From the NCBI RefSeq assembly GCF_003008515.1, contig NZ_CP027668.1, positions 4,381,001-4,445,000 of the forward strand: a DNA stretch of 64,000 bases. The letters run 5' to 3'. This document shows, one piece after another, positions 57,698 through 59,227 of the stretch. This DNA is from Phreatobacter cathodiphilus. Lineage in GTDB: Bacteria > Pseudomonadota > Alphaproteobacteria > Rhizobiales > Phreatobacteraceae. The position numbers and the translations under genes were made by a program. The notes below the pieces were generated by a model. The model did not search any database, was not told the DNA's origin, and saw only the letters and a program-made list of their open reading frames with translations. Every line of letters starts with the position of its first letter. The stretch's first letter is position 1.

Positions 57698-58039
57698 ATG
57701 ACTCACGACACACCCGCTTCGTCCGGCGACGATACCCCGCCGTCCAGACCGCTCGACCGTCGGCTCTTCGTCTTCAAGACGCTGGCGGGGGCGGCTACGC
57801 TGGTCGTTCCCGGCGCCGTCGCCACCTCGCAGCCGGCCGCGGCGCAGCGCCTGCGCGTGACGGACAGCGATCCCAACGATCGCGAGGGCCGCGGCCGCGG
57901 CCGTTTCGTCCGTCGCCGCGGCACCGACAGCGATCCCTATGACGATCCCGGACGTGGCCGCGTGCGGGTCATCCGCCGCCGCGTCCGCGTCACCGACAAC
58001 GATCCCCGGGATCCCCGTGGCCGCGGCCGCGGCTGGTAG
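57698..58039 (+). CDS. Small Tat-like secreted protein with TD(S/N)DPxD-xxGRGR repeats, candidate substrate of the next gene's oxygenase
   Basis: 113 residues. Residues 1-17 are polar. RPLDRRLFVFK at 17-27, then a hydrophobic stretch and ATSQPAAAQ at 42-50 make a Tat-like signal. After it, TDSDPND (55-61), TDSDPYD (76-82) and TDNDPRD (99-105) recur, each followed by GRGR, separated by Arg-rich stretches; the protein ends RGRGRGW. This small three-unit repeat protein is followed 12 bp later by the gene for a JmjC-type oxygenase. I know no named family. Repeats of this DxDPxD type occur in alphaproteobacteria, so a modified or metal-binding peptide is plausible but unproven. Confidence 0.75.
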   Translation: MTHDTPASSGDDTPPSRPLDRRLFVFKTLAGAATLVVPGAVATSQPAAAQRLRVTDSDPNDREGRGRGRFVRRRGTDSDPYDDPGRGRVRVIRRRVRVTDNDPRDPRGRGRGW

Positions 58040-58051
58040 GCCCGGCCGCCC

Positions 58052-59227
58052 GTGACGCTCGCGGCGGATGCATTCGGGCTGGCCTTCGGGACGATGACCG
58101 TTCCCGAGGCCTTCGCCTTGCGCGAGGGAGGCGAGGCGCGCCACCTTCCGGGCGGAGACGCCCGCCGGTTCGCGCCGCTCCTGTCCATCGCCGACCTCGA
58201 TGCCTTCCTGCGGACCGACGCGGCGCGCTCGCCGCGCGTATCGATGGCGGACAGCTCCCGCGACGGCAGCGCCGCCGTTCCCGACGATCTCTTCGCCGAC
58301 GAGGACGGCCGCATTGACCCGATCGGCCTGTTCCAGCTCTTCGACGGCGGCGCCACCCTCGTCATCTCGCAGTTCCACGAGATGCATCCGCCTCTGGCGC
58401 GGTTCTGCCGCGGGCTGGAGAAGCTCTTTCTCCATGCCGTCCAGGCCAACATCTACCTGACTCCGCCGGGCGCGCAGGGGTTTCGCACCCACTTCGACAC
58501 CCACGACGTCCTCGTCCTGCAGGTTTCCGGACACAAGGCCTGGCGGGTCTGGGGCGACATGCTTCTGCCCCACGCGACCCGCAACACGCCGTGGGACGGA
58601 ACGGTTCACCGGGCCGATCCCGCCGGTGCCCGCGATGTTCTGCTGGCACCGGGCGACGTGCTCTACGTCCCCCGCGGCGTGGCGCACGACGCGGCGGCCC
58701 AGCAAGGCGGCGAGCCCTCCCTCCATGTCACCGTCGGTCTCCTGGAGCCGAGCTGGGCCGACGCGCTGAAGGCGGCCATCGACCAGATGGAGCAGCAACA
58801 GCCGGCGTTGCGGCAGTCCTTCCGCACCTGGCGCCTCGCCGACGAGGCGTCGCGCGCCGGGCTCCTGAGTGCGGCGCGCGACCGGCTGGCGGCGGTCGCC
58901 ACCGAGGAATCACTCGACCTCGTCGCCATGCGCTTCCTCCAGCAGCTCGGCACGGACCGGATACTCATGCCGGGTCGCGGCCTCGTCGCTCCCCGGCCGG
59001 AACTCGACGACCGGCTCGTCCTCGCTGATGCCGTTCACCACTACGTCGTCCCCATGGGTGAGGGGGCGGAACTGCGCTGGGCCGGTCCGTCCGTACCTCT
59101 GACCGCGGCCGAACTGGTCTGGCTCGAGAGGCTCGGCGAGGGCGCCACCGCGCGTGAGCTCGGGGGCGAGGCGGCCCTCGCCTTCTGCGCGCGGCTCATG
59201 GCCCTCGGGCTGCTCGAGCGCGCCTGA
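58052..59227 (+). CDS. JmjC/ROX-like 2-oxoglutarate and Fe(II) dependent oxygenase
   Basis: 391 residues from a GTG (58052); a second in-frame start, ATG at 58094, is possible. The JmjC cupin core carries the iron ligands His147 and Asp149 in THFDTHD, a Lys162 suited to bind 2-oxoglutarate in QVSGHKAWRVW, and His212 in PRGVAHDA. This resembles ribosomal oxygenases such as YcfD/ROXA, which hydroxylate an Arg of ribosomal protein L16. The C-terminal 60 residues look like a winged helix, as in that family. It directly follows the small Arg-rich repeat protein (12 bp), so that protein is a candidate substrate. Substrate and reaction are inferred. Confidence 0.8.
   Translation: MTLAADAFGLAFGTMTVPEAFALREGGEARHLPGGDARRFAPLLSIADLDAFLRTDAARSPRVSMADSSRDGSAAVPDDLFADEDGRIDPIGLFQLFDGGATLVISQFHEMHPPLARFCRGLEKLFLHAVQANIYLTPPGAQGFRTHFDTHDVLVLQVSGHKAWRVWGDMLLPHATRNTPWDGTVHRADPAGARDVLLAPGDVLYVPRGVAHDAAAQQGGEPSLHVTVGLLEPSWADALKAAIDQMEQQQPALRQSFRTWRLADEASRAGLLSAARDRLAAVATEESLDLVAMRFLQQLGTDRILMPGRGLVAPRPELDDRLVLADAVHHYVVPMGEGAELRWAGPSVPLTAAELVWLERLGEGATARELGGEAALAFCARLMALGLLERA

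Follow-up and report, generated by a model that had tools for sequence, protein, structure and literature searches.

What does a ROX-like oxygenase act on when the gene before it encodes a small, Tat-like repeat protein? The window, meaning the whole stretch of 64,000 nucleotides of Phreatobacter cathodiphilus DNA analysed here, contains two such genes side by side on its plus strand. Known ROX enzymes hydroxylate C3 of arginine or histidine, according to their annotation and the available part of PMC9994133. A sequence-only reading of this DNA had proposed instead that the small repeat protein is the target. We favour the view that the pair forms a dedicated substrate-oxygenase cassette, in which a ROX-like enzyme would hydroxylate the repeats before Tat export. 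The argument for this is built from the pair itself and its recurrence, from genomes that lack both genes together or hold repeat genes in trans, and from selection on the mature repeats; the enzyme adds its conserved iron site and its predicted fold. The cassette is real and recurrent, and it has apparently not been described before. The features are these:

57698..58039, plus strand: repeat-protein gene, the proposed substrate, 113 aa (open reading frame, kept in congeners, pN/pS of the mature part 0.15)
57698..57844, plus strand: N-terminus and Tat-like signal, residues 1-49 (DRRLFVFK, a hydrophobic stretch, then AAA/Q, the slash marking the inferred cleavage site; recognised by eye)
57860..57904, plus strand: unit 1, TDSDPNDREGRGRGR (from the sequence; conserved among congeners)
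57923..57961, plus strand: unit 2, TDSDPYDDPGRGR (from the sequence; conserved among congeners)
57992..58033, plus strand: unit 3, TDNDPRDPRGRGRG (from the sequence; conserved among congeners)
58052..59227, plus strand: ROX-like JmjC_2 oxygenase, the proposed modifying enzyme, 391 aa (PF08007, E 3.4e-28; AlphaFold2 pLDDT 93)
58490..58498, plus strand: HxD iron ligands H147 and D149 (invariant in 52/52 aligned rows)
58535..58537, plus strand: K162, probable 2-oxoglutarate contact (invariant in 52/52 rows; role by analogy with ROX enzymes)
58685..58687, plus strand: third iron ligand H212 (invariant in 52/52 rows)
59015..59224, plus strand: residues 322-391, the C-terminal domain (in the model, strands leading into three helices)

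The two genes in the window

The open reading frames at 57698-58039 and 58052-59227 agree with what the sequence-only reading described, a 113-residue protein with three TD(S/N)DPxD units, each followed by GRGR, ending 12 bp before an oxygenase on the same strand. In translation the units are TDSDPND-RE-GRGRGR, TDSDPYD-DP-GRGR and TDNDPRD-PR-GRGRGW. The protein gave nothing above cut-off among the Pfam or NCBIfam models and has a single match in its own genome (E<=0.001). Its AlphaFold2 model, made with 7 sequences, has a pLDDT of 51.5 and contains nothing folded except the signal helix. The repeats in general had no Pfam or NCBIfam match in the proteins tested, apart from Tat-signal models, and therefore such genes would remain unnamed in annotation. 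A long repeat protein from another locus (L125) had no solved relatives at E<=0.1, and another repeat protein (L118) had no plasmid copies at E<=1e-8. A TTCTA-N3-TAGAA palindrome lies 5' of the window gene, but we reject it as a promoter motif; it is missing upstream in the other nine congeners. Downstream of the cassette and on the same strand is a response-regulator receiver protein (PF00072, 59265-59921, +).

The oxygenase starts with GTG and belongs to the JmjC_2 family, matching PF08007 with 98.1 bits against a curated cut-off of 22. The complete iron site and Lys162 that had been read from the letters hold up well. H147, D149, H212 and K162 are invariant throughout an alignment of 52 rows, the window enzyme being one of them, and this is the HxD..H triad and probable 2-oxoglutarate-binding lysine of JmjC_2 oxygenases. 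Among solved proteins, NO66 and MINA53 are nearest in sequence. Foldseek also puts NO66 at the top (TM 0.72 by query, 22% identity, 451 alignment columns), followed by MINA53 and then by YcfD-like and YxbC structures. With helices at 265-302 and a C-terminal domain at 322-391, the model has the ROX arrangement of JmjC, dimerisation and winged-helix domains. Residues 322-391 occupy the place of the ROX winged helix in the model and are possibly a peptide-binding domain. Section 6 of PMC12710340, in its available part, describes fish and algal proteins in which PF08007 is fused to RRE-like domains, as well as bacterial homologs, about 30% identical, in RiPP-like contexts; Tat repeat proteins are absent from the description in that part of the text.

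It could be argued from this likeness in sequence and fold to NO66, MINA53 and YcfD that the enzyme acts on a ribosomal protein, leaving the repeat protein as a co-transcribed partner, a regulator or an unrelated exported protein. The enzyme is also the sole gene of its kind in its own genome (E<=0.001), as that explanation would have it. We consider this very improbable. The enzyme and the repeat genes co-occur strictly, enzyme-bearing genomes can hold several repeat genes as well as unlinked ones, and both genes are missing together from two of the 12 genomes of the genus. Some genomes, such as G443 and G620, also have further JmjC_2 proteins outside the paired group.

Pairing within Phreatobacter

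The oxygenase is present in 10 of 12 Phreatobacter genomes, that of the window included, and the small repeat protein is present in the same 10. The two genomes without either gene are rated 100% and 85% complete. The small gene is immediately 5' of the oxygenase in all ten genomes that have the enzyme, with a spacing of 12-34 bp. Across these ten the mature part of the repeat protein is nearly constant and the N-terminus is variable, with R21, R22 and A49 invariant. The pN/pS ratio is 0.15 for the mature repeat part and 0.41 for the signal (45 pairs each), versus 0.35 for the enzyme (36 pairs, computed without the L006 oxygenase). The mature repeats change more slowly than the enzyme, and therefore the repeats themselves are under strong selection. 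The same low ratio in 10 congeners supports the small open reading frame as a coding one.

One congener (G001) has a second, unlinked repeat gene (L049 9096-9464, +; G001:C1:599137-599460), yet only a single oxygenase match. The oxygenase gene of L006 (genome G009) contains one in-frame TAG next to an intact repeat gene. Either the oxygenase gene is broken or the stop is an error of sequencing.

Recurrence beyond the genus

Relatives of the oxygenase were collected as the best 80 of 576 confirmed matches, ranked by the enzyme with its neighbours ignored. Six Phreatobacter-like loci (70-87% identity) lead these best 80, followed mostly by Acetobacteraceae/Roseomonadaceae at 51-57% and then mostly by Hyphomonadaceae at 33-44%. 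One or more repeat ORFs stand at 72 of the best 80 loci, and all 106 repeat ORFs at these 72 are upstream of the enzyme and on its strand. Two more of the best 80 have variant peptides. One, in a gammaproteobacterial MAG (L126), is a Tat-like protein with TDSTD repeats encoded upstream of the enzyme; the other, in a Rhodobacteraceae MAG (L128), is a divergent Tat-like TDSDDG peptide. A precursor gene linked to the gene of its tailoring enzyme is one mark of a RiPP pathway, and such linkage is found at the 72 loci plus these two variants. Each of the last six of the best 80 carries its repeat genes at another place in the genome, and therefore the enzyme can have substrates in trans.

The arrangement of the genes differs between lineages. 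For ARRANGEMENTS, the genes are co-directional in most lineages, often with two or three repeat genes in tandem. L012, L013, L128 and L250-L253 have a divergent arrangement with one to three peptides, whereas the peptide gene of L014/L042 shares the enzyme's strand and precedes it. When the ORFs of the best 80 of 576 loci were crudely clustered, there was no third gene family common to the pair, and neither a graspetide synthetase nor a protease recurring beside it. The widest identified neighbour family is the TctC receptor (PF03401), on the opposite strand at 24 of the 80 loci and within L058-L114 only. A neighbour cluster spanning 42 loci consists mostly of frames opposite other ORFs (147/159). 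A constant pair in differing gene context and orientation is what one expects of a two-gene cassette whose function holds it together.

Specificity of the pairing

The sequence-only reading had suggested looking for the pair across Hyphomicrobiales. It is found far beyond that order, both among the loci above and in the surveys of whole genomes. The oxygenase profile matches 46 of the 337 genomes of the class set (E<=1e-8), and the repeat profile matches 10 (E<=1e-5), all within the 46. Fisher's test gives p 9e-10 for this, a value to be taken as a guide that overstates independence, because the genomes are related and the three survey sets overlap. Counted by genus, repeats occur in 7 of the 9 genera that have a close oxygenase and in 0 of 244 others. 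Oxygenases (E below 1e-95) and repeat proteins occupy the same 5 of 149 genomes in family f64, where the repeat protein is missing from four further genomes whose JmjC_2 matches are different ones (E 7e-32 to 2.5e-43). The repeat profile, which derives mainly from proteins adjacent to the enzyme and is blind to unlike families, matches 5 of the 339 genomes of the phylum set, all among the 8 with a close oxygenase. Read directly, all 8 of these loci have adjacent TDxD peptides, and the profile missed three of them.

The pairing belongs to one kind of JmjC_2 enzyme. Adjacent repeats are present at 12 of the 13 strongest of the 56 class-set oxygenase loci, the exception being L139. They are present at 0 of 37 less related JmjC_2 loci (flanks up to 1.5 and 2.5 kb), a count that leaves out 5 weak matches of the 56, and one further weaker locus, read separately, is also without them. 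Among the matches from outside the genus in the order survey of 297 genomes (L012-L027), seven are paired (L012, L013, L014, L016-L019) and nine are not.

A quick maximum-likelihood tree of 113 of the 157 rows tells the same story. All 61 rows labelled paired fall within one group of 72 rows (SH-aLRT 81), with none among 40 other rows, and the paired label takes 9 changes on the tree versus 37.8 in shuffles. The tree is weakly rooted, the short E. coli RoxA row is weakly placed, and L015, L020 and L026 are long branches. Duplicates (L130, L050-L055) and rows under 200 residues (for example L006, L027, L051, L207 and L208) were left out, and a random 22 of the paired Acetobacteraceae-type rows were kept and the others left out. 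Some labels were set by hand. L014, L016-L019, L126 and L128 were labelled paired from their peptides, and a porin-like frame among the flanks (L193) was unlabelled as a false positive. L116 carries the unpaired label despite its adjacent repeats. L139 and L015, both inside the paired group, have no adjacent repeat gene, and the repeat profile has no match in their genomes (G496 and G066).

The pairing of oxygenase and repeats is more than chance. The sequence-only reading had deduced the substrate relation from adjacency. Co-occurrence now speaks for it as well, along with the co-absence in the genus, the copies in trans and the different gene arrangements. We believe the repeat protein is very probably the substrate of the oxygenase, and the recurrence of the pair in many different alphaproteobacteria likely reflects a protein-modification pathway.

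Which residue is the target?

Arginine, aspartate and asparagine had all been named as possible targets, and the repeats themselves help to choose between them. The main unit type is TG-x-[TS]-D-x-D-P-x-D-x-x-G-x-G-R-G (491 units) and the second is TG-x-T-D-x-D-x-G-x-x-x-D-x-x-G-x-G-R-G (207 units), counted over 157 frames that include some spurious ones. The D positions read 1.00 in this count because the search pattern demands D. A count anchored on GxGR, with D not required, finds D six residues before the R at 767 of 972 anchors, and 761 of these 767 have the D-x-D pair. At the other 205 anchors there is no D at -6; of these, 15 strings were viewed, and most proved to be overlapping readings of GRGRGR-like runs.

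Further paired unit types are DGDPGDPYDNDPYDD in L016-L018 (L019 has a form much like it), GGPDDKDPEDDDE in L014, GSDYDPNDPIGG in L137 and TDSTDQTGGE in L126. What stays constant across the unit types is almost always D-x-D (D-S-T-D in L126), rather than GRGR or arginine. This bears directly on the idea that the oxygenase hydroxylates the GRGR arginines, as E. coli RoxA does on ribosomal protein L16, to give a hydroxyarginine-rich cationic peptide. RoxA is annotated as an arginine 3-hydroxylase, and arginine is still a candidate because GxGR is very conserved in the two main unit types (its R at 0.96 and 0.92). However, the paired repeats of L014 and L137 are free of arginine, L126 has it only at the C-terminus, and the DxDPxD units of L016-L019 lack GRGR. 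We think the arginine explanation is unlikely. Arginine and asparagine are less likely targets than aspartate, because arginine is missing from some paired repeats and the S/N position of the unit is variable. For hydroxylation at C3 of aspartate we would give about an even chance.

It is also conceivable that the oxygenase forms a cross-link or makes some other oxidation, such as a macrocycle between units, and no plain alcohol. Macrocyclisation by a 2-oxoglutarate dioxygenase in RiPPs has been published, to judge by a title (reference 45 in the available part of PMC12710340), and the conserved D, G and R, being closely spaced, could be partners. We find this quite improbable. The solved or annotated enzymes most similar in fold go by the names of hydroxylases or demethylases, and ornithine hydroxylation is what the accessible text of PMC12707348 gives for BipG, the JmjC enzyme of a RiPP pathway.

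Comparison with known systems

The window enzyme shares with NO66/RIOX1, MINA53/RIOX2 and E. coli RoxA/YcfD the JmjC_2 domain, the HxD..H motif with a lysine 15 residues after the first histidine, and the layout of JmjC, helical and C-terminal winged-helix-like parts. It differs from them in that enzymes of the window type have a repeat-protein gene adjacent or elsewhere in the genome, form their own group in our quick tree, and are not known to have a ribosomal target.

AspH and FIH are eukaryotic hydroxylases that act on C3 of aspartate or asparagine in folded EGF or ankyrin repeats. The proposed reaction is similar, Asp/Asn hydroxylation within repeats, and FIH shares the JmjC fold with a weak Foldseek match. 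These enzymes differ in being eukaryotic, in the folded nature of their repeats and in belonging to different subfamilies. Bufferins are small exported peptides made with an iron-dependent oxygenase, in their case MNIO enzymes working on cysteine. Here the enzyme is a JmjC protein and the repeats are rich in aspartate, and, roughly counted, just 38 of 157 frames have a cysteine following the signal. The bufferins are exported metal-binding RiPPs (reference 73, as cited in the available part of PMC12710340).

The closest parallels in RiPP pathways come from sources seen in part. BipG of biphenomycin (PMC12707348, available part) is likewise a JmjC 2-oxoglutarate enzyme with a ribosomal precursor peptide in its own cluster, the substrate here being putative. 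It acts on ornithine, the core being short and the cluster one of many enzymes, whereas here there is a two-gene cassette with long repeats and an export signal. Among the 2-oxoglutarate oxygenases of graspetide clusters, the accessible portion of PMC13097080 has SmaO hydroxylating C3 of a precursor aspartate and CorC hydroxylating five repeated motifs in one precursor. The system of SmaO/SmaX and CorC resembles the pathway proposed here in Asp C3 hydroxylation (SmaO) and repeated motifs (CorC). CorC, by the same portion of PMC13097080, is a PF13640 protein that acts after a graspetide synthetase, and the window enzyme is a JmjC_2 protein.

The sequence-only reading named no described system of this kind. 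We too found no description of the pair in the literature searched, outside of which lie most subscription journals, except for a passing hint in the available part of PMC12710340. No paper was found for literal unit strings such as TDSDPSD.

Export and the proposed pathway

The small protein had also been called a Tat-like secreted protein. The motif would fit this. By eye the protein has the twin-arginine motif, the hydrophobic stretch and AAA/Q, the RR is invariant in congeners, and a relative (L251) passes TIGR01409 with 21.4 against a cut-off of 16.7. The small protein itself, however, drew no match from any Tat model, whether in Pfam (to E 1) or in NCBIfam (to E 5). A lipobox follows the RR stretch in 29 of 157 frames by a rough pattern.

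We propose that, using Fe(II), O2 and 2-oxoglutarate, the ROX-like JmjC enzyme would hydroxylate the small repeat protein unit by unit in the cytoplasm, most likely at C3 of the conserved D-x-D core aspartates. The modified protein would then leave through the Tat pathway and lose its signal; some lineages may instead lipidate it at the lipobox. With a Tat signal, the protein could be modified in the cytoplasm ahead of export, and that order of events is the one we lean toward. The end product would be a mostly unfolded periplasmic peptide. Its aspartate clusters may bind metal ions, a suggestion we make tentatively.

A broader proposal is more speculative, and we regard it as possible rather than probable. 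A widespread, undescribed class of Tat-exported multi-repeat peptides may exist in which one ROX-like JmjC enzyme hydroxylates the aspartate of every unit in several substrates, linked and unlinked, giving metal-binding poly-(3-hydroxyaspartyl) peptides or lipoproteins in the cell envelope of alphaproteobacteria. If the repeat protein is indeed the substrate, a group of bacterial ROX-like JmjC oxygenases would gain a non-ribosomal, genetically linked substrate with many sites. Protein hydroxylation would be tied to Tat export and perhaps to metal handling in the envelope. The lineages concerned are Phreatobacter, Acetobacteraceae, Hyphomonadaceae and Rhodobacteraceae.

Some leaders have a motif like TL[ST]Dx[DE]I before the twin arginines (L012, L136, L137, L209, L250-L253 and L259). 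A related form is found in L014 and L016-L019, and the motif is missing from the Phreatobacter and Roseomonas types. It is possibly a recognition sequence. The strict pattern TLxDxDI before RR occurs in 9 of 154 distinct leaders, with more by eye; it is limited to some lineages and therefore cannot be a universal recognition element. Two unlinked Tat-like peptides (L259 1030-1791, +, and L217 1480-1815, -) have a lipobox-like GCV and units of the form TDxDNGPI..D..GxGRG, and both come from oxygenase-bearing genomes of the Rhodobacteraceae-like group.
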